A DNA stretch of 64,000 nt, taken from Gluconacetobacter takamatsuzukensis. GTDB taxonomy: Bacteria > Pseudomonadota > Alphaproteobacteria > Acetobacterales > Acetobacteraceae. Below are positions 1-63,971 of the stretch, piece after piece; position 1 is the stretch's first letter, and each line of letters starts with the position of its first letter. Below the pieces are notes generated by a model. That model did no database searches. It was not told the DNA's origin and saw nothing but the letters and a program-made list of their open reading frames with translations. The position numbers and the translations under genes were made by a program. Location of the stretch: the NCBI RefSeq assembly GCF_014174275.1, contig NZ_JABEQK010000002.1:248001-312000 (forward strand), read 5' to 3'.

Positions 1-122
1 CCGTCGCCGGCGGCAACCAGCACATGCACCTCCCCCAGCGGGGCAAGGGCGGAGAGCGTCCGCGCAACCGCATCGGTGGCCAGACGGCCCTGATGGGTTT
101 CGGCCAGCAGCAGAACAGTCAT
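1..122 (-). CDS. etfA: Electron transfer flavoprotein alpha subunit, N-terminal part (cut by window edge)
   Basis: Only about the first 40 codons lie in the window; the gene continues past the left edge. The visible start reads [14 protein letters not shown] and then GEVHVLVA, which matches the N-terminus of the etfA at 62287-63219 ([11 protein letters not shown], then GEVHVLVT). EtfA with EtfB forms the FAD-containing heterodimer that carries electrons from acyl-CoA-type dehydrogenases to the membrane quinone pool. Its ATG overlaps the etfB stop codon (TGATG), so the two are translationally coupled. FAD-binding residues lie outside the window. Confidence 0.85.
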   Translation of the reverse strand, partial: MTVLLLAETHQGRLATDAVARTLSALAPLGEVHVLVAAGD

Positions 123-883
123 CAGAGTACTCCCGCCTGGGTCTTGAGTTTGTCGACCAGTTCATCCACCGACGCCACCCGCACGCCCGCGACACGCTGC
201 GCGGGCTCGACCGTGCGCACGATCTTCAAGCGTGGCGTCACATCCACATCCAGCTCCGCCGCCGTGCGGTCCTCCAGCGGCTTCTTCTTGGCCTTCATGA
301 TGCTGGGCAGCGAGACATAGCGCGGCTCGTTCAGGCGCAGGTCCACGGTCACGACGGCCGGCAGTTTCACACCGATGGTCTGCAACCCGCCATCGACCTC
401 CCGCGTCACCACGGCACGGCCATCGGCGATCTCGATCTTGGAGGCAAAGGTCGCCTGCCCCCAGCCCAGCAGCCCCGCCAGCATCTGGCCGGTGGCGTTC
501 ATGTCGTTGTCGATGGCCTGCTTGCCGGCAATCACCAGGTCGGGCCGCTCCGCCTCCACGATCCGCGACAGCAGCCGCGCCACGGCAAGCGGCTCGATAT
601 CCCGGTTCACGTCCGACGTGGCATCGACCAGGATCGCCCGGTCGGCCCCCATGGCCAGCGCCGTGCGCAGCGTATCCTTCGCCTGCTGCACCCCGATCGA
701 CACGACGACGATCTCCGAGGCCACGCCGCGCTCCTTCAGGCGCACGGCTTCCTCCACCGCGATCTCGTCGAACGGATTCATCGACATCTTGACGTTCGCC
801 AGCTCGACCCCGCTCCCATCCGTGCGGACACGGACCTTCACGTTGTAGTCGACCACCCGTTTGACAGGGACAAGAATCTTCAT
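122..883 (-). CDS. etfB: Electron transfer flavoprotein beta subunit (first paralogue)
   Basis: A 253-residue protein starting [18 protein letters not shown], with the ETF-beta signatures [33 protein letters not shown] and LRLNEPRY. EtfB pairs with EtfA, binds AMP and accepts electrons from flavoprotein dehydrogenases. The start is the ATG at 883; an in-frame extension upstream is Arg-rich and unlike the family. It sits 16 bp after the isomerase-like gene and overlaps etfA, ending a six-gene leftward operon that starts with an acyl-CoA dehydrogenase. It is clearly paralogous to the etfB at 63222-63971, but has a few extra residues before EPLAV and a diverged C-terminal third. This suggests an ETF dedicated to the cluster's dehydrogenase. 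Confidence 0.93.
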
Positions 884-899
884 GATTTCCTCGGCATGT

Positions 900-1757
900 T
901 CAACAGACGGACCGAAAGCGCTCGACCATCGTGTCCAGGACCTCCGCCGGGTCGCGCTTCCACCAATTATTCGCGGAGAAGATTTCCACCTCGCAGAATC
1001 CCCGGTACCCGGCAGCCTCCACGGCCGCGCGCAGGCCCCGCAGATCGGCCACCCCATCGCCCATCATGCCGCGATCCAGCAGCACATCCGTCGTCGGCAC
1101 CAGCCAGTCGCACAGATGAAACCCCAGAATGCGCCGCCCCGCCCGCACAAGCTGGCGCGGCAGGTCGGTATCCCACCACACATGATAGACATCGATCGCC
1201 ACCCCCAGACCTTCGGCGCCGATCAGGTCGCACAGATCCAGCGCATCCCGCGCCGTGGTCAGGCAGGACCGGTCCCCGGCATAGACCGGGTGCAGCGGCT
1301 CCAGCGCCAGCTGCACGCCACAGGCGGCAGCATGGGGCAGCACCGCGGCCACCCGCTCGGCCACGATCTTCAGGCTCTCGGCCACCCCCTTCGTCCCGGC
1401 CTCCACCCCGCCGGTCACGATCGTCAGCACCGGCGCGCCCAGGGCCGCGGCCTCGTCGATCGCCAGCCGGAAATCGTCCCGGATTTCCACCGTCCCGCGC
1501 GGCGCCAGCGGGCCGACCAGAAAGGGCGCGCGGCACAGCCCCGCCACGCTCACCCCGGCGGCACGCGCATGGGCACCGATGACCGCAGCCCGGCCCGCAA
1601 TCTCCCGCCGCCAGAACACGATCCCGCCGATCCCGCGCTCCGCGCAGGCATCGATGGTCCGCTCCGGCGACCACCCTGCCCCGGCACCGGGGACATTATG
1701 GCCCAGCGTCGCGGTATTCAGCGCCAGCGCCGTAAGGTCGTGACGAAAATCGCGCAT
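900..1757 (-). CDS. Sugar phosphate isomerase/epimerase family TIM-barrel protein
   Basis: About 285 residues with the pattern of the xylose-isomerase-like TIM barrels: [10 protein letters not shown] at the first strand, [15 protein letters not shown] with the metal-ligand Glu, [12 protein letters not shown] with Asp and His, GFHLCDW, and CEVEIFSAN with the last Glu. The metal ligands of the fold therefore look intact. The start MRDFRHDL at 1757 places the gene 1 bp after the DUF993 stop; an in-frame codon at 1778 is an alternative. Family members isomerise or epimerise sugars, keto-sugars or hydroxypyruvate. The substrate cannot be read from the sequence. Its place between a DUF993 gene and etfB suggests a keto-sugar-like or polyol-like intermediate. 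Confidence 0.8.
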
Positions 1758-1758
1758 C

Positions 1759-2907
1759 TCATGCCCCGTAGAGCGCAAGCAGCGATTTCATGCGGCTGGC
1801 CGCGCGCTCGGGGTCGCGCAGCAGCCCGCACCCGTCGGCAAGGCGAAAGATCCCGGTAAAATAAGGCAATGGCCGCATCGCCTGCGCCCCGTTGACCATG
1901 ACGAAATGGTCCTGAAAACCATTCAGCCACGCCAGAAAGACCACACCCGTCTTGTAGAACCGCGTCGGCGCGCGAAAGATCAGCCGCGCCAGCGGCACGG
2001 TCGGGTCCAGCACGGCATGGAAGGCCGCCACATCCCCCTCCCCCAGCTTCGCCACGGCGTAGGACGCAGCGGCGGCCAGCGGGTCGAAGATCCCCAGCAG
2101 CGCGTGGCTGAACCCCTGCCCATCCCCCGCGATCAGTTCGGGATAGTTGAAATCGTCCCCCGTATACATCCGCACGCCTTCCGGCAGGCGGCGCCGCAGG
2201 ATGATCTCCTTCTCCTTGTCCAGCAGCGAGATCTTGATCCCGTCGATGCGCGACCGGTTCTCCTCGATGATCGCCAGCACCGTCTCCAGCGCCCCGTCGA
2301 AATCGCGGCTGCCCCAATATCCCGCCAGTTCCGGGTCGAACATCTCGCCCAGCCAGTGCAGGATCACCGGCTGCTCGCACTGCGCCAGTACCGTGCGATA
2401 GACGCGCTCGTAATCCTTGCCGCTCTGCGCCACGCGCACCAGCGCCCGGCTGGCCATCAGGATCAGCCGGCCGCCGACGGCCTGGATCGCCTCCACCTGT
2501 TCCAAATAGGCGCCGATCACCTGGTCGACCGAGCGGGCATGAAGCGGGTCCAACTGGTCCGTCCCGCAGCCATTGCCGATCAGCGCATCGGGCAGTTCCG
2601 CCCGCGTGCGCCGGATCAGCTCCAGCGAGCGCGGCCAGTCCATCCCCATGCCGCGCTGCGCCGTATCCATGGCCTCGGCAATGCCCAGCCCCAGCCCGGC
2701 CAGATACCGGCGGAACTCGAGTGTCTTCTCCCAGTCCACGGCGGCCGGTCCGGAAGGATCGGCGGCGGTGAACGGATCGGCCACCACATGCGCGGCCGAA
2801 TAAACGATCCGCGCAGGGTCGCGCGGCAATACCGCATGCGGCAGGGGCGTGCCGGTCATGACATGATCCGTCATCCGGCCCGTTTCGTCGGGAAGTGCGA
2901 TTTTCAT
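1759..2907 (-). CDS. DUF993 family protein (dihydrodipicolinate synthase/aldolase-like)
   Basis: A 382-residue protein starting MKIALPDETGRM. Features such as GNGCGTDQLDP, HWLGEMFDPELAGYWGS, GIKISLLDKEKE (with the Lys expected for a Schiff-base aldolase) and MYTGDDFNYPELI fit the DUF993 branch of the DHDPS/NAL aldolase superfamily. No reaction is firmly assigned to this branch as far as I know. Homologues are often found beside sugar isomerases and oxidoreductases, as here. The start at 2907 is preferred over an ATG two codons upstream because a GAGA stretch sits at normal Shine-Dalgarno distance. It lies 8 bp after the SDR gene and 1 bp before the isomerase gene. Confidence 0.75.
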   Translation of the reverse strand: MKIALPDETGRMTDHVMTGTPLPHAVLPRDPARIVYSAAHVVADPFTAADPSGPAAVDWEKTLEFRRYLAGLGLGIAEAMDTAQRGMGMDWPRSLELIRRTRAELPDALIGNGCGTDQLDPLHARSVDQVIGAYLEQVEAIQAVGGRLILMASRALVRVAQSGKDYERVYRTVLAQCEQPVILHWLGEMFDPELAGYWGSRDFDGALETVLAIIEENRSRIDGIKISLLDKEKEIILRRRLPEGVRMYTGDDFNYPELIAGDGQGFSHALLGIFDPLAAAASYAVAKLGEGDVAAFHAVLDPTVPLARLIFRAPTRFYKTGVVFLAWLNGFQDHFVMVNGAQAMRPLPYFTGIFRLADGCGLLRDPERAASRMKSLLALYGA

Positions 2908-2915
2908 GGCCATTC

Positions 2916-3683
2916 TCAAAAACGGGGCACGAGCATGCCGGCATCGGCCGAAATGACCTGCCCGGTGGTATAAGGAAGCTTTCCGCAGGCAAGCGTCGCG
3001 ATGATGGTCCCGATCTCCCCGGGCTCCCCCACGCGCGGCATCAGCGTCAGCCCGTCGGCGGCGCGTTTGCGATAGGCCTCGATCACCGGCGCCGTCATGT
3101 CGGTGGCCACCAACCCGGGCTGCACGTCGTAAACGGCGATATTCTCCGGCCCCAGCCGCACGGCCAGCGCCTTCGACACCATCGCGGCCGCCGCCTTCGA
3201 CACGCAATATTCCGCCCGCTGCACCGCCACGGCCACGGCGTTGGACGAGGTCACGTTCACCACCGCATGAAACAGCGCCTCCGGCCGCGCCCGCGCCAGC
3301 AGCCGCCGCGCAAAGGCCTGCGACAGAAAGAACGCCGCCCGTGCATTGACCGTCAGGCAGCGGTCCCAGCTTTCCTCGCTGACATCCAGCAGGTCGCCCC
3401 GGTGCAGCACGCCGACGCCGGCATTGTTCACCAGCGTCGTCAGCGGCCCCAGCGTGTCCTCGATCCGCGCCAGCCAGGGCGCGTGCGCGGCGGTGTCGCC
3501 CACGTCGAAGGGTGCCGCCATCACCGGCACGCCCAGCGCCTCCACCCGCGCCACCGCCGCGTGCAGTTCGGCGTCCGCGACGGGCCCGTTGATCGCCACC
3601 GCAAAGCCGGCCCGCGCCAGCGCCTCGGCGGCCGCCAGCCCGATCCCGCGCGAGGACCCGGTGACCAGCGCAACCTGTCTCAT
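2916..3683 (-). CDS. Short-chain dehydrogenase/reductase (FabG-like)
   Basis: A 255-residue classical SDR. The Rossmann motif TGSSRGIG is at residues 8-15, NNAG near residue 88, and the catalytic pair in YCVSK near residue 160, with a Ser in VTSSNAV upstream. The C-terminal TGQVISADAGMLVPRF closes the fold in the usual way. Such enzymes reduce or oxidise keto/hydroxy groups with NAD(P). The start codon overlaps the acyl-CoA dehydrogenase stop (ATGA), so the genes are coupled. Annotation as 3-oxoacyl-ACP reductase is possible, but the operon points to a catabolic hydroxy intermediate. Confidence 0.85.
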   Translation of the reverse strand: MRQVALVTGSSRGIGLAAAEALARAGFAVAINGPVADAELHAAVARVEALGVPVMAAPFDVGDTAAHAPWLARIEDTLGPLTTLVNNAGVGVLHRGDLLDVSEESWDRCLTVNARAAFFLSQAFARRLLARARPEALFHAVVNVTSSNAVAVAVQRAEYCVSKAAAAMVSKALAVRLGPENIAVYDVQPGLVATDMTAPVIEAYRKRAADGLTLMPRVGEPGEIGTIIATLACGKLPYTTGQVISADAGMLVPRF

Positions 3684-4822
3684 GCCCGCGCGCCCTTCTT
3701 CATCAGCTCGCGGGCGATGATCATGCGCTGGATCTGGTTGGTCCCTTCATAGATCTGCGTGATCTTGGCATCGCGATACAGCCGCTCGACCTCGAAACCC
3801 CGGATATAGCCCGAGCCCCCGAACACCTGCACCGCATCCGCCGTCCGGGCGACGGCGGCATCCCCGGCGAAGCATTTGGCCATCGAGCACGCACGCGTGG
3901 CGTCCAGCCCCCGGTCGATCTTCACGGCGGCGGAATGCACCAGCAGCCGCGCCGCCTCGATATCCTTCGCCATGTCGGCCAGCAGCCACTGCACGCCCTG
4001 GAATTCCGCGATATGCTTGCCGAACTGCTTGCGGGTGCCCGCATAATCCACGGCGGCTTCCAGCCCCGCCTGGGCAATGCCCACGGCCAGCGCCGCAATG
4101 CCCACGCGCCCCTTGTCCAGCACGCTCATCATCATGTGGAACCCGCGCCCGGCCTCGCCCAGCAGCGCATCGCGCCCCAGCCGCACGTCCGAGAAGTTCA
4201 GTCCCCCCACCTGGCTGGCCCGCTGCCCCATCTTGTGTTCCTTGGGCCCGCGCTCCACCCCCTGCGCATGCAGGTCGACGATAAAGATCGACATGCCCCG
4301 GGTGCCCGCTTCCCTGTCGGTCCGCGCCAGCACGAAGCCGGTATCCGCGACCGGGGCATTATGGATCCAGATCTTCCCGCCATTCAGCACCCAGCCATCG
4401 CCATCCTTCTCGGCGGTGGTGCGGATCCCCGATACATCGGTCCCGGCCTCGGGCTCGGTGATGCAGTACGCCACCTTGCGCCGCATGCCCAGGATATCGG
4501 GCAGCATCGCCTGCTGCCGCCCGGTGCCATGCCGCACCAGCAGGGTCGAGATCAGCTCCACCAGCCCGCACTGGTCCGCCACGCTGGCGTACCCGCGCGA
4601 AAGCTCCTCCATCACCACGGCATAGGTCAGCGTGTCGAATCCCGGCCCGCCCAGCGCCTCGGGAACGCCGATGCCGAACAGGCCCAGTTCCGCCATCTGG
4701 TCGTAAATTTCGGAAGGGAACCGCTCCTCGCGGTCCAGCGCCTCGGCAGCGGGGCGAATCACCTCGTCGGCGAAGGCCTGGACTGTCTCGCGCACCTGTT
4801 CCTGTGTCTCGTTCAGATACAT
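3680..4822 (-). CDS. Acyl-CoA dehydrogenase
   Basis: A 380-residue FAD enzyme. It shows the family motifs YCITEPEAGTD, GGKIWIHNA and GMSIFIVD, the flavin/substrate region GTRKQFGKHIAEFQGVQW, FGGSGYIRG, and the catalytic Glu in QIYEGTNQIQRM. It introduces a double bond next to an activated carbonyl and passes electrons to ETF; etfB and etfA are in the same operon. The ATG at 4822 (MYLNETQEQ) gives the usual family length; an in-frame TTG at 4840 would add six residues. First gene of the leftward operon. No acyl-CoA ligase or transferase is nearby, so the true substrate is open. Confidence 0.92.
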   Translation of the reverse strand: MYLNETQEQVRETVQAFADEVIRPAAEALDREERFPSEIYDQMAELGLFGIGVPEALGGPGFDTLTYAVVMEELSRGYASVADQCGLVELISTLLVRHGTGRQQAMLPDILGMRRKVAYCITEPEAGTDVSGIRTTAEKDGDGWVLNGGKIWIHNAPVADTGFVLARTDREAGTRGMSIFIVDLHAQGVERGPKEHKMGQRASQVGGLNFSDVRLGRDALLGEAGRGFHMMMSVLDKGRVGIAALAVGIAQAGLEAAVDYAGTRKQFGKHIAEFQGVQWLLADMAKDIEAARLLVHSAAVKIDRGLDATRACSMAKCFAGDAAVARTADAVQVFGGSGYIRGFEVERLYRDAKITQIYEGTNQIQRMIIARELMKKGARA

Positions 4823-5443
4823 TCCGGCATTCCCGCTCAAATATGAACTAACTGGTTACATACATCCGGGCAGAGGCCCGATCAAGGACAAAGCAGCCGC
4901 CACCCCCGTCACATTCCCCCGATTCCACGCAAAGGATCGCAATCGCAGGCCCCAGCGACCCGCCGGCCCCGATCGCACACGGCATGGAACATCCGAATCC
5001 CTGTTGTTTTCAACAGCATTTTTCACGAACCCGGCACAAACCCCTTCCCGCCGGCTCCCCCGCCTATCACGGCAAATTGAGTTACCCCGCCCGAGCCGCC
5101 GGTCTATCAGTATGTAACCAGACGGTGCGTTTGGGCGAAGTCGTTCTAGAAAAACAGGTGCCGTCGCAAAAATGCGACACCAGGCATAATAAAAACAGGA
5201 CGCCGAAAGATGATGAAAGCCGGAACCAGGCAACCGACAGGCAAGGCAGGCGCCACCTCCGCGCGCCCCCAGTCGCCGCCTGCGCGCAAACGAACCAACC
5301 GGCCTTCCAACGGTTGACCGACCCACGGGCGCACCCGCGCCCGCGTCGCGTCACACCGTTTCACGCATCGCCTCGCGACTTCGCGACATGCGCCCGACCA
5401 CCCAACCACGCCCGACCACCCAACCAGGGAGGACAGTTCGTCG
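4823..5443. promoter_or_regulatory. Divergent regulatory region of the oxidative cluster
   Basis: About 620 bp without a convincing gene. It holds a 12-bp motif GTATGTAACCAG once on the minus strand (4852-4863) and once on the plus strand (5110-5121), forming a widely spaced inverted pair facing the two operons. On the minus strand TTGATC (4880-4885) and TATGTA (4857-4862) are 17 bp apart, a weak sigma70-like promoter whose -10 lies in the motif. TAACTGGTTA at 4849-4858 is palindromic around two central bases. Two further short hairpins are CTGTTG/CAACAG (5001-5016) and GTCGC/GCGAC (5163-5178). The region before the rightward gene is AT-richer than the flanks. No regulator gene is adjacent. 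Confidence 0.5.
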
Positions 5444-6943
5444 ATGAACGACATGGCATATGGGGCGCTCCTGCCTGAAACCCCGCGTGAATTCGGTTTT
5501 TTCGTCGATGGTGCATGGCGCGCCGGCCATGACTGGTTCACGCGCACATCCCCCAGCCACGACATTCCGGTCACGCGCATCGCCCGCTGCACGACGGACG
5601 ATCTGGATGCCGCCGTCGCCGCCGCCCGCCGCGCGTTCGAGAACCGGAGCTGGGCCGGCCTGCCCGGCGCCGAGCGCGCCGGCATCCTGCTGCGCACCGC
5701 CGAGGGCCTGCGCCGTCGCCGCGACGAAATCGCCTATTGGGAAGTGCTGGAAAACGGCAAGCCCCTGACCCAGGCACGCGGCGAGATCGACCATTGCATC
5801 GCGTGTTTCGAGGTCGCGGCCGGCGCGGCCCGCCTGATGCACGGCGACAGTTTCAACAATCTGGGCGATAGCCTGCTGGGCCTGACGCTGCGCGAGCCCA
5901 TCGGCGTCGTCGGCCTGATCACGCCATGGAACTTTCCGTTCCTGATCCTGTGCGAGCGCGTGCCCTTCATCCTCGCCTCGGGCTGCACGCTGGTCGTCAA
6001 GCCCGCCGAAGTCACCAGCGCCACCACCCTGATCCTGGCCGATATCCTTGCCGAGGCCGGCCTGCCGGGCGGCGTCTACAACGTGGTCACGGGCGCGGGC
6101 CGCACCATCGGCCAGGCACTGGCGGACCATCCGGACGTGGACATGCTGTCCTTCACCGGCTCCACCGCCGTCGGCCGCTCCTGCGTCCACGCCTCGGCCG
6201 ACAGCAACCTCAAGAAGCTGGGGCTGGAACTCGGCGGCAAGAACCCGATCGTCGTCTTCGCCGACGCCAACCTGCACGACGCCGCCGATGCCGTGGCCTT
6301 CGGCATCGGCTTCAACACCGGCCAGTGCTGCGTCTCCTCCAGCCGCCTGATCGTGGAACGGTCGGTGGCGCGCGAATTCGAAACCATCCTGGCCGACAAG
6401 ATGGCGAAGATCCGTGTCGGCGACCCGTTCGATCCGCAAACCCAGATCGGCGCCATAACCACCCAGGCCCAGAACGACACCATCATGGGCTATATCGCCC
6501 AGGGCCAGAAAGAGGGTGCGAAGCTGCTGTTCGGCGGCCGGGCGCTGGATCTGGGGCGCGGCCATTTCATCCAGCCGACCCTCTTCTCCGACCTCACCCC
6601 CTCCATGGCGGTCGGGCGGGAGGAAATCTTCGGCCCCGTTCTGTCCTCCTTCCATTTCGACACGACGGAGCAGGCGATCGCGCTGGCCAACGACACGGTC
6701 TACGGCCTCGCGGCCTCGCTGTGGACGCGCGACATCGACAGGGCGCTGACCGTCACCCGCCGCGTGCGCGCCGGCCGCTTCTGGGTCAACACCATCATGG
6801 CCGGCGGGCCGGAAACCCCCATCGGCGGCTTCAAGCAGTCGGGCTGGGGTCGGGAATCCGGCCTGCTGGGCGTCGAGGAATATACCCAAGTCAAATCGGT
6901 GCATATCGAAACCGGCGGCCGCACGCACTGGATCGCATCATGA
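5444..6943 (+). CDS. NAD(P)-dependent aldehyde dehydrogenase
   Basis: A 499-residue member of the ALDH superfamily. Visible are the cofactor/oxyanion motif ITPWNFPFLI, KPAEVTSATT, the NAD-loop region SFTGSTAVGR, the general base Glu in LELGGKNP, and the catalytic Cys in GQCCVSSS. It oxidises an aldehyde to the acid. The start ATG at 5444 has GGGAGGA at 5427-5433. Its stop overlaps the start of the GMC oxidoreductase gene (ATGA), so an alcohol-to-aldehyde-to-acid sequence is likely made from one transcript. Substrate specificity (betaine aldehyde-like or other) cannot be set from the sequence. Confidence 0.93.
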   Translation: MNDMAYGALLPETPREFGFFVDGAWRAGHDWFTRTSPSHDIPVTRIARCTTDDLDAAVAAARRAFENRSWAGLPGAERAGILLRTAEGLRRRRDEIAYWEVLENGKPLTQARGEIDHCIACFEVAAGAARLMHGDSFNNLGDSLLGLTLREPIGVVGLITPWNFPFLILCERVPFILASGCTLVVKPAEVTSATTLILADILAEAGLPGGVYNVVTGAGRTIGQALADHPDVDMLSFTGSTAVGRSCVHASADSNLKKLGLELGGKNPIVVFADANLHDAADAVAFGIGFNTGQCCVSSSRLIVERSVAREFETILADKMAKIRVGDPFDPQTQIGAITTQAQNDTIMGYIAQGQKEGAKLLFGGRALDLGRGHFIQPTLFSDLTPSMAVGREEIFGPVLSSFHFDTTEQAIALANDTVYGLAASLWTRDIDRALTVTRRVRAGRFWVNTIMAGGPETPIGGFKQSGWGRESGLLGVEEYTQVKSVHIETGGRTHWIAS

Positions 6944-8538
6944 CGCAGGGATTCGACTATATCATCGTCGGCGGCGGCTCGGCCGGCTGCGTCCTGGCGG
7001 CGCTGCTGTCCGAAAACCCGTCCTCCCGCGTCTGTCTTTTCGAAGCCGGCAAGCGCGACACCAACCCGCTGATCCACATGCCGATCGGCTTCGCCAGGAT
7101 GACGACGGGCCCCATGACATGGGGCCTGACCACCACGCCGCAGAAACACGCCAACAACCGGCAGATCCCCTATGTGCAGGCCCGGGTGCTGGGCGGCGGC
7201 TCGTCGATCAATGCCGAAGTCTTCACCCGCGGCCACCCTTCCGACTACGACCGCTGGGTCGAGGAAGGCGCCGAGGGCTGGGGTTTTCGTGATATCCAGA
7301 AATACATGATCCGCTCCGAGGGCAATACGATGCTCTCGGGCCCCTGGCACGGCACCGACGGCCCGCTGGGCGTGTCCAACCTGTCCGAGCCCAATCCGGT
7401 CAGCCGCGCCTTCGTGCAGAGCTGCCAGGAGATGGGCATGCCCTACAACCCCGATTTCAACGGCGCGGTGCAGGAGGGCGCGGGCATCTACCAGATGACC
7501 ATCCGCAACAACCGCCGCTGCTCCGCCGCCGTCGGCTATCTGCGCCCGGCGCTGGGGCGGCCCAACCTGCATGTCGTCACCGGCGTGCAGGTGCAGCGCA
7601 TCGTCTTCGAGGGCCGCCATGCCGCCGGCGTGGAATATCTCACGCGCGACGGCACAAGCCGCATCGCCCGCGCCGACCGCGAGGTCATCGTCACCTCGGG
7701 CGCCATCGGCACGCCCAAGCTGCTGATGCTCTCCGGCGTGGGCCCCGCCGCCCACCTGCGCCAGCACGACATCTCCGTGGTGCAGGACCTGCCCGGCGTG
7801 GGCCAGAACCTGCAGGATCATTTCGGCGTCGACGTGGTGGCGGAACTCAACACGCACGACAGTCTCGACAAATACCGCAAGCCCCACTGGATGCTCTATG
7901 CGGGCCTGCAATACGCCCTGTTCAAATCCGGCCCGGTGACGTCGAACGTGGTCGAGGCCGGGGCCTTCTGGTATTCCGACCGCCAGGCCCCCTGCCCCGA
8001 CCTGCAATTCCATTTCCTGGCCGGCGCGGGGGCCGAGGCCGGCGTGGCCTCGGTGGACAAGGGCATGTCGGGCGTGACGCTCAACAGCTACGCGTTGCGC
8101 CCCAAGTCGCGCGGCTCCGTCACCCTGCGCTCCTCCGACCCGCGCGAGGCCCCGCTGGTCGATCCCAACTTCCTGGCCGACCCCGACGACCTGCGCATTT
8201 CGGCGGAAGGCGTGCGCCTCAGCGTCGATCTCTTCTCGCGCCCGTCGCTGCGCAAATATGTCCGCCGGGTCGCCGGTTTCGACCGCACCCCCACCACCCG
8301 CTCGGGGTTCGAAGCCTATGCCCGCCAGCACGGCCGCACCTCCTACCACCCCACCTGCACCTGCAAGATGGGCCGCGACGCCATGTCGGTGGTCGATCCG
8401 CAACTGCGCATCCACGGTCTGGAAGGTATCCGGATCTGCGACAGTTCGATCATGCCCTCCATCATCGGCTCCAACACCAACGCCCCGACCATCATGATCG
8501 CCGAGCGGGCAGCCGACCTGATCCGGGGCAACGCCTAG
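6940..8538 (+). CDS. GMC-family flavin alcohol oxidoreductase (choline dehydrogenase-like)
   Basis: A 532-residue FAD protein. The dinucleotide-binding motif GGGSAGCVLAALLSE is at residues 11-25; ARVLGGGSSINAEVFTRGH is the GMC signature 1, and SGAIGTPKLLMLSGVGP is signature 2. The C-terminal active-site region has SYHPTCTCKMG (catalytic His) and GSNTNAPTIMIAERAAD (partner Asn). It oxidises a primary alcohol with the electrons leaving through FAD, normally to the respiratory chain. The gene overlaps the aldehyde dehydrogenase gene by 4 bp. No betaine-choline transporter or betI-type regulator is visible, so a choline function is not supported by context. Confidence 0.9.
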   Translation: MTQGFDYIIVGGGSAGCVLAALLSENPSSRVCLFEAGKRDTNPLIHMPIGFARMTTGPMTWGLTTTPQKHANNRQIPYVQARVLGGGSSINAEVFTRGHPSDYDRWVEEGAEGWGFRDIQKYMIRSEGNTMLSGPWHGTDGPLGVSNLSEPNPVSRAFVQSCQEMGMPYNPDFNGAVQEGAGIYQMTIRNNRRCSAAVGYLRPALGRPNLHVVTGVQVQRIVFEGRHAAGVEYLTRDGTSRIARADREVIVTSGAIGTPKLLMLSGVGPAAHLRQHDISVVQDLPGVGQNLQDHFGVDVVAELNTHDSLDKYRKPHWMLYAGLQYALFKSGPVTSNVVEAGAFWYSDRQAPCPDLQFHFLAGAGAEAGVASVDKGMSGVTLNSYALRPKSRGSVTLRSSDPREAPLVDPNFLADPDDLRISAEGVRLSVDLFSRPSLRKYVRRVAGFDRTPTTRSGFEAYARQHGRTSYHPTCTCKMGRDAMSVVDPQLRIHGLEGIRICDSSIMPSIIGSNTNAPTIMIAERAADLIRGNA

Positions 8539-8820: not shown

Positions 8821-10380
8821 ATGAAGATCCATGCAACAAGATGGACCCATTCCCTCGCAGCCGGCTTCACCCTCCTCTCCTGCCTGCCCGGCGGGCTGTC
8901 CCAGGGGCTGGCCCAGTCCGTTTCCCGCATCACCCCCAAGCCGCATACGGTGCCGGCCCCCACGCCCCCGCACCCGGCGGCAAAGAGCATCCACACGCCC
9001 ATCGTGTCGGTCCAGCCGCAACCCGTCCTCCTCCCGCCGGAAGCGGAGGATCTCGGAAACACCAAAAGGCAGGAACTGTCCGATACCACCGAACACGCTT
9101 TCTTCCCCGCCAGTTTTCACGACTGGATGACCCAGGCGACCCTGACCGGCAACTGGGGCGGCAGGCGGACATGGCTGGTCGATCGCGGCGTCACCATCAC
9201 CGGCCATTATTTCCAGGACAGTGCGGGAAACCCGATGGGCGGACAGTCGCAGAACGTCCGCTACGCGCATGAAATCGGCATCAACGTCGATTTCGATCTC
9301 AAGAAACTCACCAGCATGAATATCGGCCTGTTCCATTTCATCGTCACCTCCCGCGCCGGCCAGGGGCTGGGGGCCAAGCTGCCGGCGCTGGACAGCCCGC
9401 AGGAAATCTATGGCTCGCCCACCGTGCGCCTCTCGCTGCTGTCGTGGGAAATGCCGTGGAACAAATACGTCGCCACCACGGTCGGCGAGATCAACGCCGA
9501 GACCGATTTCGAAACCTGGTCCTATTACTGGGGCATGAACAATTACTGCCAGTTCCAGACCAACGCCATCTGCGGCATGCCGCAATCCATCGCCTACAAT
9601 TCCGGCTACAGCTACTACCCCACGGCCCATCCCGGCGCATGGGTCAAGTTCTACCCTGCCGGCAACAACCATTATTCCATCCAGTTCGGTGCCTATTCCG
9701 TCGACCCCACGATCGCCAACACGCATAACGGATGGAAGCTGAACCTCCACGGCGCCACCGGCACCTTCCTGCCCTTCCAGCTCGTCTGGCACCAGGGCGG
9801 CAAGGACGATTACAGCGGCCCCCTGCAAACCAACGTCAAGGTCGGCGGCTACTGGGACACGTCGCAGGTCAGCGACGTCTATTCCAAACTGGGCATGTTC
9901 CAGATCCCGTCGCAATATCTCGTGGGCGCCCCCACCTCCACCGTCCGGGGCCGCTTCGGCGGCTGGCTCCAGTTCGACCGCCTGCTCCAGCGCGACACCT
10001 ACGCCCCCCACCGGGGCACATCCTTCTTCGCATCCTTCACCTGGGGCGACCCCAGGACGGCCGTCTTCCCCTATTTCGTGGACTGGGGCATCACGCGCAA
10101 GGGCACCTTCGCCAGCCGCCCCGACGACACGGTCAGCCTCGGCATGAAATATCTGTGGGTCAACGCCAAACTGACAAACTACGTGGCACAACTACAAAAA
10201 GAGGGAGATACTGGCCTGTACAAACCCACGCAGGAACACGCGATCGAACTCAATTACGGCTGGCACCCCGCCCCCTGGCTGCTGATCCGCCCCGGCGCGC
10301 AATATATCTGGAGCACCGGCGGCACCAACCGCTACAAGAACCCGCTGATCCTGGATTTCGAAACCGGCGTGTCCTTCTAG
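8821..10380 (+). CDS. OprB-like carbohydrate-selective porin
   Basis: About 519 residues. A signal peptide (hydrophobic core LAAGFTLLSC, cleavage after LAQ) is followed by a Pro-rich linker and a long aromatic-rich beta-barrel segment. Features typical of OprB are LTGNWGGRRTWLVDRGV, ETWSYYWGMNN, FGGWLQFDRLL, and a C-terminal Phe (ETGVSF) for outer-membrane insertion. Such porins let sugars and polyols through the outer membrane, which fits the oxidative cluster upstream. The ATG at 8821 has an AGGGAG box at 8805-8810; an in-frame ATG at 8761 would add a charged stretch before the signal peptide. The stop is only 7 bp from the pdxJ stop on the other strand. Confidence 0.85.
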   Translation: MKIHATRWTHSLAAGFTLLSCLPGGLSQGLAQSVSRITPKPHTVPAPTPPHPAAKSIHTPIVSVQPQPVLLPPEAEDLGNTKRQELSDTTEHAFFPASFHDWMTQATLTGNWGGRRTWLVDRGVTITGHYFQDSAGNPMGGQSQNVRYAHEIGINVDFDLKKLTSMNIGLFHFIVTSRAGQGLGAKLPALDSPQEIYGSPTVRLSLLSWEMPWNKYVATTVGEINAETDFETWSYYWGMNNYCQFQTNAICGMPQSIAYNSGYSYYPTAHPGAWVKFYPAGNNHYSIQFGAYSVDPTIANTHNGWKLNLHGATGTFLPFQLVWHQGGKDDYSGPLQTNVKVGGYWDTSQVSDVYSKLGMFQIPSQYLVGAPTSTVRGRFGGWLQFDRLLQRDTYAPHRGTSFFASFTWGDPRTAVFPYFVDWGITRKGTFASRPDDTVSLGMKYLWVNAKLTNYVAQLQKEGDTGLYKPTQEHAIELNYGWHPAPWLLIRPGAQYIWSTGGTNRYKNPLILDFETGVSF

Positions 10381-62286: not shown

Positions 62287-63219
62287 TCAGCCCGCCGTAT
62301 CCAGCGCCGCCTCGACCTGCGGCAGGATCTCGAACAGATCCCCCACCAGCCCGTAATCGGCCACCTGGAAGATCGGCGCCTCCGGGTCCTTGTTGATCGC
62401 GACGATGACCTTGCTGTCCTTCATCCCGGCCAGATGCTGGATCGCACCGGAAATACCGACGGCGATATACAGGTCCGGCGCCACGATCTTGCCGGTCTGC
62501 CCCACCTGGTAGTCGTTGGGCACGAAACCGGCATCGACGGCGGCGCGCGAGGCACCGATGGCGGCACCCAGCCGGTCGGCCAGCGGGTTCAGCAGCTTGA
62601 AATTCTCCTCGTTCTGCATGCCGCGACCGCCCGAGACGATCACCCGCGCCGATTCCAGCTCGGGCCGCTCGGACTGCGACAGCGCGATCGAGACGAATTC
62701 CGACAGCACCGGCCCCTCGGGCACCGCCACCTGCTCGATGGGGGCGGCACCGCCCTCGGCCGGGGCTGGGTCGAAAGAGGACGCGCGCACCGTCAGCACC
62801 TTCTTCGCGTCCGACGATTTCACGGTCGCCAGCGCGCTGCCGGCATAGATCGGGCGCACGAAGGTATCGGCATCGACGATCGACACCACGTCGGGGATCG
62901 GCTGCACGTCCAGCAGGGCGGCGGCACGCGGCAGCACGTTCTTGCCACTGGCGCCGGAGGCCGCGAGGATATGGCTGTAGCCGGGGGCGAGGTCCGCGAT
63001 CACCGCCGCCAGCGGCTCGGCCAGTTCATGGGCGGCGGCGGCACCGGCGGCGCGCAGCACCTTGGCCACGCCGTCGATCCGCGCGGCGGCTTCGGCCACC
63101 GGGGCATCGCCCGTCACCAGCACGTGCACCTCGCCCAGCGCCCGCGCGGCGGTCACGGCCGAACGCGACGCCTGGCGGATGACACCGGACTCATGATCCA
63201 GGAAAACGAGTACGGCCAT
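62287..63219 (-). CDS. etfA: Electron transfer flavoprotein alpha subunit (second paralogue)
   Basis: A 310-residue protein. The N-terminal domain [20 protein letters not shown] with [10 protein letters not shown] is followed by the FAD domain: [59 protein letters not shown] and [20 protein letters not shown], then [19 protein letters not shown], all diagnostic for EtfA. With EtfB it takes electrons from several dehydrogenases to ETF-quinone oxidoreductase. It lies 2 bp after etfB. This is probably the general ETF of the cell. Confidence 0.97.
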
Positions 63220-63221
63220 GA

Positions 63222-63971
63222 TCAGATCACCTTCGCTTCGTTGCGCAGACGGGCCACCAGGTCGGCGGCGGATTCGACCTTGATGCCCTGCTGGCGCGCC
63301 GGCGGCTCGGCCACCGAGACGATGGTCAGGCGCGGCGTCACATCCACGCCCAGGTCGGCGGGCGCAATCGTCTCCAGCGGCTTCTTGCGCGCCTTCATGA
63401 TGTTGGGCAGCGAGGCATAGCGCGGCTCGTTCAGCCTCAGGTCGGCCGTCACGATGGCCGGCAGCGCCAGCGTCAGCGTCTCCAGCCCGCCATCGATCTC
63501 GCGCGTCACGGTCGCCTTGCCATCCGCGATCTCGATCTTGCTGGCGAACGTGCCCTGGCCCCAGCCCAGCAGACCGGCCAGCATCTGGCCGGTGGCGTTC
63601 ATGTCGTCGTCGATCGCCTGCTTGCCCAGCAGCATCAGGTCGGGATTTTCCTTCGCGACCAGCGCCTTGAGGATCTTGGCCACCGCCAGCGGCTCCACCG
63701 CCACGTCGGTCAGGACCAGGATGGCACGATCCGCCCCCATCGCCATCGCGGTGCGCAGCGTGTCCTGCGCCTGCTGCACGCCGACCGACACCGCCACCAC
63801 TTCGGTCGCGATGCCCTTTTCCTTCAGGCGCACGGCTTCCTCGACCGCGATCTCGTCGAAGGGATTCATCGACATCTTCACACCGGCGGTCTCGACACCC
63901 GTGCCGTCCGCCTTCACGCGCGGCTTGATGTTGAAATCGATCACGCGCTTTACGGGAACAAGAACCTTCAT
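63222..63971 (-). CDS. etfB: Electron transfer flavoprotein beta subunit (second paralogue)
   Basis: A 249-residue protein, [20 protein letters not shown], with [40 protein letters not shown], and [20 protein letters not shown], diagnostic for EtfB. ATG at 63971, GAAGAGG upstream. The right edge of the window cuts off anything further upstream; the remaining 29 bp hold only the ribosome site. It is close to the etfB at 122-883 in sequence but lacks that copy's extra residues before EPLAV. Confidence 0.97.

Follow-up and report, generated by a model that had tools for sequence, protein, structure and literature searches.

A conserved DUF993 gene cluster of Gluconacetobacter takamatsuzukensis with a candidate role in CoA-linked catabolism of a carbohydrate-like compound

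For Klebsiella michiganensis a deoxyribonate route has been proposed that comprises, in the available text of the report, a CoA-synthetase, a beta-hydroxyacyl-CoA dehydrogenase, a thiolase, a CoA-transferase and a glycerate kinase (PMC6365646). In Gluconobacter oxydans WSH-004 and T-100, L-sorbosone dehydrogenase has an FAD L-sorbose dehydrogenase (SDH) as its partner, as described in the accessible part of PMC7092628. The locus treated here lies in the 3.78-Mb genome of Gluconacetobacter takamatsuzukensis. The window, that is, the whole stretch of 64,000 nucleotides analysed (NZ_JABEQK010000002.1, C2:248001-312000), begins within a gene cluster that encodes an acyl-CoA dehydrogenase (ACAD), a short-chain dehydrogenase/reductase (SDR), a DUF993 protein, a xylose-isomerase-like TIM barrel protein of family PF01261 (TIM) and the electron transfer flavoprotein (ETF) subunits EtfB and EtfA, divergent from an aldehyde dehydrogenase (ALDH) and a GMC flavoprotein. 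An earlier sequence-only reading regarded these genes as parts of a pathway that had not been characterised. They do form a coherent oxidative catabolic unit, and a literature search of open-licence papers retrieved neither a description of a pathway with this gene set nor a paper that names the DUF993 family.

The interpretation we favour, with somewhat less than even confidence, is that the locus acts as one inducible unit for the CoA-linked catabolism of a deoxy-polyol or ketose-like compound, in which DUF993 would make the C-C cut. It starts from a gene set, a conservation pattern and a shared palindromic operator that are apparent at the level of sequence. The locus is a compact set of about seventeen genes of which the window shows only the middle. 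The six leftward genes overlap or nearly touch, as had been noted: ACAD and SDR overlap by 4 bases and etfB and etfA by 1, whereas SDR and DUF993 are separated by 8 bases, DUF993 and TIM by 1, and TIM and etfB by 16. They diverge from a coupled ALDH-GMC pair with an overlap of 4 bases, next to which lies an OprB porin gene. The sixth leftward gene, etfA, is present but lies nearly completely outside the window, with about 120 bases inside it and about 805 bases beyond base 1 to the left. DUF993 occurs as a single copy in the genome.

For the comparison with relatives, a genome scan provided 80 loci, the best 80 of at least 480 confirmed DUF993 relatives and thus biased to close ones, and an even sample of 385 genomes of the class Alphaproteobacteria contributed 35 further loci from 34 other genomes, which together with the own locus amounts to 116. 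Gene neighbourhoods were evaluated in 59 well-flanked SDR-type loci, the own one included, with at least 6 kb upstream and at least 3 kb downstream of DUF993; loci with shorter flanks were excluded. Some genes beneath antisense ORFs, such as SDR in several loci, escaped the ORF caller, and the reference genes were therefore counted by tblastn, with exclusion of matches below 45% identity or half coverage. ACAD was found in 52 of these loci, TIM in 58, GMC in 47, the CoA-transferase in 45, an aldo-keto reductase (AKR) in 44, ALDH in 31 and EtfA in 19. Where the neighbours are present, their order is nearly always ACAD-SDR-DUF993-TIM-EtfB-EtfA, and the median gaps range from -1 to 16 bases. Gaps smaller than 60 bp separate ACAD from SDR in 51 of 52 cases, SDR from DUF993 in 57 of 59, DUF993 from TIM in 58 of 58, TIM from EtfB in 19 of 19 and EtfB from EtfA in 18 of 19. 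The gene order is not due to chance, and the scattering of the genes in relatives that the sequence-only reading had named as speaking against its proposal was not observed. Rough counts of de novo clusters in the 116 loci revealed a crotonase in 45, a DkgB-like AKR that scores below its family cut-off in 45, a Dabb protein in 26, a MaoC protein in 25 and a glycerate-kinase-type DUF4147/MOFRL protein in 23.

As judged from the sequence matches, the cluster has close relatives in several families of Alphaproteobacteria. Among the matches listed for named genomes, the closest DUF993 proteins are those of Gluconacetobacter liquefaciens (95% identity) and G. asukensis (94%). DUF993 was present in 3 of 7 genomes of the genus and in 77 of 299 of the family, counts in which the kinds of locus are not separated; DUF993 is therefore an accessory trait. 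In the two nearest named relatives, EtfA and AKR are about 3 to 5 kb farther apart than in the own genome. An alphaproteobacterial-type cluster together with the operator was also encountered on a contig named Enemella evansiae (Actinomycetota), a case of transfer or contamination. In Gluconacetobacter tumulisoli the operator is kept and is followed by what appears to be a decayed ACAD start upstream of SDR (approximately 8.7-9.2 kb of that locus), and no match to EtfB or EtfA was obtained in the locus. EtfA is also missing from all seven well-flanked SDR-type loci that lack ACAD. These absences, together with the decay in G. tumulisoli, tie EtfBA to ACAD.

The region between the divergent ACAD and ALDH genes contains GTATGTAACCAG twice, in opposite orientations. 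Genome-wide, the word TATGTAACCAG is present at exactly two positions, one ahead of each of the two operons, and because it occurs nowhere else the ACAD and ALDH sides look co-regulated in this organism. A related word, GTAACYNNNNRGTTA, has one site, which ends 23 bases ahead of the CoA-transferase start, so that all three occurrences of the two words in the genome fall within the DUF993 locus. The motif was noticed in the own locus first and was counted in relatives afterwards, with random windows as a control. TAAC-N6-GTTA was found within 300 bases upstream of ACAD in 62 of 72 relatives, of the CoA-transferase in 56 of 61 and of AKR in 53 of 61, where the values for AKR and ACAD are not independent since the two genes often flank one common divergent region; it occurred in 3.2% of 2000 random windows of 320 bases. 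Over 18 whole genomes with the cluster, the stricter TAACYANNTRGTTA yielded 29 sites in 15 genomes, all of them by coordinates at most about 23 kb from DUF993 (contig identity was checked in four genomes), compared with 7 sites across the 18 genomes for the same pattern written backward. The ALDH-side copy is exact in the own genome only; of seven further loci inspected in acetic acid bacteria, four contain it when up to two mismatches are allowed. The neighbouring TetR-family regulator is the predicted ligand of the operator. Just past the locus flank, a TetR gene and the importer genes are present in genomes of Paracoccus, Ensifer and Oricola. The operator provides a direct handle on the function, as a compound that induces these promoters would be the substrate or close to it. 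Operator copies that might give a clue to the substrate were seen in an Ensifer locus (L123:10317), ahead of a glyoxalase-like (VOC) gene with a dehydrogenase, and in an Oricola locus (L124:13764), ahead of a TetR gene with a ribokinase-like gene behind it; these genes were named from reading their sequences.

Table 1 Features of the DUF993 locus; plain numbers are window positions, numbers with the prefix C2 are positions on the contig
Feature	Position	Strand or orientation	Evidence and remarks
etfA, 5' end	1..122 (full gene C2:247196-248122)	-	ETF and ETF_alpha Pfam matches
etfB	122..883	-	Pfam ETF, 142 bits
PF01261 xylose-isomerase-like TIM barrel protein	900..1757	-	Pfam, 129 bits; PDB relatives 3ju2 (SMc04130), 3qc0, 7vpf
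DUF993 protein, candidate Schiff-base lyase (K225)	1759..2907	-	Pfam, 579 bits
SDR, candidate beta-hydroxyacyl dehydrogenase	2916..3683	-	NCBIfam PRK12745, 345.6 bits (cut-off 250); Y...K motif
Acyl-CoA dehydrogenase (ACAD)	3680..4822	-	Three Pfam ACAD domains; YEGT motif at 358
Candidate operator before ACAD (TATGAACTAACTGGTTACATAC on +)	4842..4863	-	
Second copy of GTATGTAACCAG, ALDH side	5110..5121	+	
Aldehyde dehydrogenase (ALDH), L-sorbosone dehydrogenase homologue	5444..6943	+	7w5l, 911.7 bits
GMC flavoprotein, L-sorbose dehydrogenase-like	6940..8538	+	Pfam GMC domains; ends resemble WSH-004 SDH primers
OprB carbohydrate porin, probable outer-membrane entry	8821..10380	+	Pfam OprB, 307 bits (scanned from 8761)
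Aldo-keto reductase (AKR)	C2:246001-247014	same as etfA	Left of window
Ribose-type ABC importer: binding protein, permease, ATPase, second permease	C2:241230-245830	same as etfA	
Zinc dehydrogenase	C2:240175-241209	same as etfA	
CoA-transferase	C2:238437-240005	convergent to importer/zinc dehydrogenase run	About 8 kb left of window
TetR-family regulator	C2:237384-238100	divergent from CoA-transferase	

The ALDH-GMC pair resembles a known enzyme pair, a likeness that had escaped the sequence-only reading. The lengths of the T-100 enzymes first pointed to this match. ALDH scores 911.7 bits against the L-sorbosone dehydrogenase 7w5l of G. oxydans WSH-004, to which it is 78.3% identical over 484 residues (Gluconobacter members up to 82.6%), while the next different enzyme scores 488.9. 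It carries the Cys-Cys pair (GQCC at 293), and by this close match it is a homologue of L-sorbosone dehydrogenase. ALDH proteins of this type, with at least 65% identity over at least 400 residues, were found in 29 of the 116 loci. The translated WSH-004 SDH primers read MTSGFDYI (forward) and QGNA-stop (reverse); the GMC protein begins with MTQGFDYI and ends with RGNA. Among the loci listed, those with 14 or more matching positions, its relatives share 14 to 21 of 32 published SDH positions at a constant offset. No match to the start of the WSH-004 SDH gene was obtained in the 299 Acetobacteraceae genomes searched. The activity of WSH-004 SDH on L-sorbose is very low according to its authors, in the accessible text (PMC7092628), which would fit a different native substrate.

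The AlphaFold model of DUF993 (pLDDT 86.8) has the TIM-barrel fold of the dihydrodipicolinate synthase (DHDPS)/N-acetylneuraminate lyase (NAL) superfamily in Foldseek searches. The first match is 4dnh (Sinorhizobium meliloti SMc04132, TM 0.95), followed by DHDPS-family entries with E values from about 4e-10; among the matches listed, the DHDPS/NAL entries 3na8, 7loy, 2a6l and others range from about 4e-10 to 9e-9 with target-normalised TM values of 0.66-0.83. The matches also include DHDPS with the K161A mutation and two hydratase-aldolases, 9frt and 6dan (PhdJ). At least 97% of the 116 DUF993 sequences retain K225. The best-supported guess is that DUF993 would be a Schiff-base lyase. DUF993 occurs in two kinds of locus. 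In 21 loci it stands beside a Gfo/Idh-type dehydrogenase, usually together with a PF01261 protein and without CoA genes. In a quick tree, in which 48 of 113 inner branches have support below 80 and from which only one branch with 83 rows was used, 72 ACAD-linked, 8 of 9 SDR-only and 3 unclassified rows fall on one side of a long branch (SH-aLRT 100). We infer that ACAD-(hydratase)-SDR of the one kind may stand in for the Gfo/Idh dehydrogenase of the other, and that DUF993 would receive a ketone in either. An assignment of the Gfo/Idh-type outgroup to inositol 2-dehydrogenase or levoglucosan dehydrogenase was abandoned, as the NCBIfam matches are far below cut-off. SMc04132, SMc04133 and SMc04135 of S. 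meliloti are among the proteins changed in a study of AniA (PhaR), the available text of which states no function for them (PMC12542648). In four genomes of one family, a putative gene for benzoyl-CoA epoxidase BoxB lies near DUF993; these box-like genes, recognised by sequence, were taken as chance neighbours.

ACAD is of the ETF-linked type, with the Pfam domains, adjoining EtfBA genes and a YEGT motif that contains the catalytic Glu. Its nearest PDB chain is CarC, a caffeyl-CoA reductase subunit. The sequence-only reading had assigned to ACAD its own ETF. An EtfBA pair is indeed encoded in the cluster, but besides it the genome contains two EtfBA pairs with strong matches and a third with a weak one; the other EtfB copies are 69-70% identical to that of the cluster. 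A second etfB-etfA pair lies in the window at 62302-63971 on the minus strand, with identities of 69 and 55% to its counterpart in the cluster, and near it, just past the right window edge, there is an ETF:quinone oxidoreductase (ETF-QO) match at C2:312062-312364. ETF-QO is encoded in the genome, which makes the link to the quinone pool suggested for the redox steps possible. The absence of a CoA ligase, a hydratase and a thiolase had been noted as well. With regard to the thiolase this holds: the organism's own thiolase as tblastn query had no match longer than 100 residues at E<=1e-5 in the 116 loci. The lack of CoA activation and hydratase is largely a window-edge artefact, since the corresponding genes are located beyond the window edge or in relatives, namely the CoA-transferase about 8 kb to the left and the crotonase or MaoC genes of other loci; a CoA-synthetase was not noted in the own locus.

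Four Gluconobacter genomes with DUF993 loci, three of which display the full cluster while the fourth locus begins just before DUF993, contain only short, weak Thiolase_N matches (best E 2e-8), and two of two tested had no ECH_1 match. Behind DUF993-TIM, all four loci carry genes for an ETF pair and an ETF-QO-like gene; these ETF-QO-like genes were recognised by sequence, and NCBIfam returned only generic weak matches for the one examined. The four genomes carry a second ETF pair elsewhere, so that the cluster is not their only source of ETF. The genome of G. takamatsuzukensis has two weaker ECH_1 matches outside the locus.

Based on these proteins, the following sequence of events is conceivable. 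The compound would be imported by the ribose-type ABC importer, in this organism with the help of OprB, and AKR and the zinc dehydrogenase would interconvert hydroxyl and carbonyl groups. GMC, with electrons passing to the quinone pool, and ALDH would take a terminal CH2OH to COOH, as do their sorbose/sorbosone homologues, and the CoA-transferase would form the acyl-CoA. ACAD would then desaturate C2-C3 via EtfBA and ETF-QO. Hydration would be performed by crotonase or MaoC where present, and otherwise by another enzyme or DUF993 itself, after which SDR would oxidise the beta-hydroxyl. DUF993 would take the place of thiolase, with K225 forming a Schiff base on the ketone before the C-C bond is cut. 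The PF01261 protein, in relatives also glycerate 2-kinase, would lead the polyol fragment into glycolysis. OprB is encoded in 9 of 81 loci and adjoins GMC in a few acetic acid bacterial loci; among the 54 loci that span 19 kb or more, 10 contain the importer binding protein, a number that is low in part because the flanks end there.

A carbohydrate-like substrate is suggested by the ribose-type importer, OprB, the sorbosone-type ALDH, the PF01261 protein and the glycerate kinase of 23 loci, in agreement with the keto-sugar or polyol-like intermediate proposed by the sequence-only reading, which overall was partly confirmed in its observations and partly supported in its interpretation. The most plausible class is a deoxy-polyol, a deoxy-ketose or its acid with CH2-CH2 beside the oxidised end. 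One may speculate about a 4,5-dihydroxypentanoyl-CoA-like compound, from which desaturation, hydration and oxidation would yield a deoxyribonate-type intermediate and glycerate as product; glycerate is attractive on account of the same 23 kinase genes. A farther-reaching version, which we regard as rather doubtful, sees in DUF993 a new thiolase-type cut, made by a lysine-dependent DHDPS-fold lyase on the beta-keto product of a carbohydrate beta-oxidation by ACAD and SDR. Organisms free of thiolase and crotonase, here exemplified by Gluconobacter, would thereby run a CoA-linked oxidation of a sugar-derived acid, with L-sorbose and L-sorbosone dehydrogenases as a borrowed front end.

Several observations weigh against the proposed CoA-linked route. 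ACAD is lacking in 7 of the 59 well-flanked loci, the CoA-transferase in 14, ALDH in 28 and EtfA in 40, although some of these genes may lie beyond the flank. SDR-DUF993-TIM is kept without ACAD, which counts against ACAD as an obligatory step. In the even sample DUF993 occurs in 35 of 385 genomes of the class, and the ACAD kind was represented there only by the own locus and one other (L119). Most DUF993 loci outside the ACAD clade have Gfo/Idh partners and no CoA genes; DUF993 therefore need not act on a CoA compound. Neither a hydratase nor a glycerate kinase was seen in the own locus. In phmmer, K225 is matched to the DapA lysine of the sequence GIKEATGD with weak statistics (E 0.05 to 0.09). 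TAAC-N6-GTTA is rare upstream of ALDH (5 of 35) and GMC (5 of 63) in relatives, and 3 of the 18 genomes lack the strict TAACYANNTRGTTA motif.

Among the alternatives, cleavage first and CoA chemistry later is possible, if unlikely. Enzymes of the DHDPS superfamily act mostly on 2-keto acids, and DUF993, with its Foldseek matches to that superfamily, might be a 2-keto (deoxy) sugar-acid aldolase or dehydratase that acts on a carbohydrate prepared by GMC, ALDH, SDR and the isomerase-like protein. The CoA-transferase would then activate the small acid released and ACAD would oxidise it, for instance in a reaction of the propionyl- to acryloyl-CoA type; acryloyl-CoA reductase is the best NCBIfam match of ACAD, though under cut-off. 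The Gfo/Idh-type loci without CoA genes and the 7 of 59 loci that lack ACAD but keep SDR-DUF993-TIM or part of it are in line with this order of events, as is the 2-keto acid that a sorbosone-type ALDH would yield according to the accessible text of PMC10602560. The translational packing of ACAD-SDR-DUF993 (51 of 52 and 57 of 59 close gaps) fits consecutive steps better, even if gene order is weak evidence on reaction order.

We consider it quite unlikely that DUF993 is a hydratase-aldolase which would hydrate the enone or enoyl product of ACAD on the Schiff base and then cut it, so that no crotonase is needed. The presence of 9frt and 6dan among the Foldseek matches and the two Gluconobacter genomes with ACAD, SDR, DUF993 and ETF but no ECH_1 match agree with such a function. 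However, plain DHDPS enzymes outrank the hydratase-aldolases in Foldseek, crotonase (45 of 116) and MaoC (25 of 116) occur in loci of relatives, and Gluconobacter could have a hydratase of another family. L-sorbose catabolism, in which GMC and ALDH produce 2-keto-L-gulonate for consumption by the remaining locus, is improbable: the homology of ALDH to L-sorbosone dehydrogenase and the sub-cut-off DkgB-like AKR of 45 loci would be explained, but the CoA-transferase, ACAD and ETF are left without a role, and the SDH homologue from WSH-004 is itself poor on L-sorbose, as reported in the accessible part of PMC7092628. Ordinary fatty- or branched-acid beta-oxidation, which uses the families of ACAD, EtfBA, SDR, crotonase and CoA-transferase, is very improbable and was set aside because no thiolase match was obtained in the 116 loci and a distinct set of genes for thiolase, a FadB-like protein, EtfBA, ETF-QO and another ACAD (28.7% identity to that of the cluster) is located at about C1:476-485 kb; moreover, the own locus does not combine thiolase, hydratase and 3-hydroxyacyl-CoA dehydrogenase as a canonical beta-oxidation operon does, and it contains a sugar-type importer and a PF01261 protein. 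Vitamin B6, ascorbate, furan and pantothenate pathways were weighed as well and dropped.

A structure of the DUF993 family has been solved (4dnh), and the locus places the family in a context that can be tested. It also points to the natural surroundings in which relatives of the sorbose/sorbosone dehydrogenases exploited in making vitamin C precursors may operate. Should DUF993 perform the cleavage, a beta-oxidation of carbohydrates that needs no thiolase would constitute a new metabolic route, with acetic acid bacteria, rhizobia and relatives of roseobacters as its carriers to date.

The proposed CoA-linked route can be placed among known systems as follows. The Gfo/Idh-DUF993-TIM loci, including S. 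meliloti SMc04130-04139, have DUF993 and the PF01261 protein in common with the cluster, while a Gfo/Idh dehydrogenase takes the place of ACAD-SDR and no CoA genes were seen in them. With the DHDPS/N-acetylneuraminate lyase superfamily DUF993 shares the TIM-barrel fold and, in a weak alignment, a lysine at the corresponding GIK motif, at 12-18% identity among the Foldseek matches listed. The fold of LsrF is aldolase-like. A precedent for a CoA-dependent cut to acetyl-CoA and a triose phosphate is given by LsrF, the autoinducer-2 (AI-2) thiolase, whose substrate is phosphorylated, unlike that proposed for DUF993; the likeness concerns the reaction as described in the accessible text (PMC7828210). 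The WSH-004/T-100 pair corresponds to ALDH-GMC, with 78% identity to L-sorbosone dehydrogenase over 484 residues and a GMC protein alike at both ends and in type; in the available texts the pair appears only as a two-step oxidation to 2-keto-L-gulonate (PMC7092628, PMC10602560). The K. michiganensis route employs a CoA-synthetase and a thiolase, neither of which was seen in the own locus, and major facilitator superfamily (MFS) rather than ABC transport; the DUF993 cluster adds ACAD/ETF, GMC/ALDH, PF01261 and DUF993, none of which is named for that route in the accessible part of its description (PMC6365646). The two have in common the CoA-linked oxidation of a sugar-derived acid, a beta-hydroxyacyl-CoA dehydrogenase, a CoA-transferase and a glycerate kinase, the latter here in 23 of the 116 loci and not the own (PMC6365646, available text), and by this analogy the locus of G. 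takamatsuzukensis may work like a deoxyribonate-type pathway.

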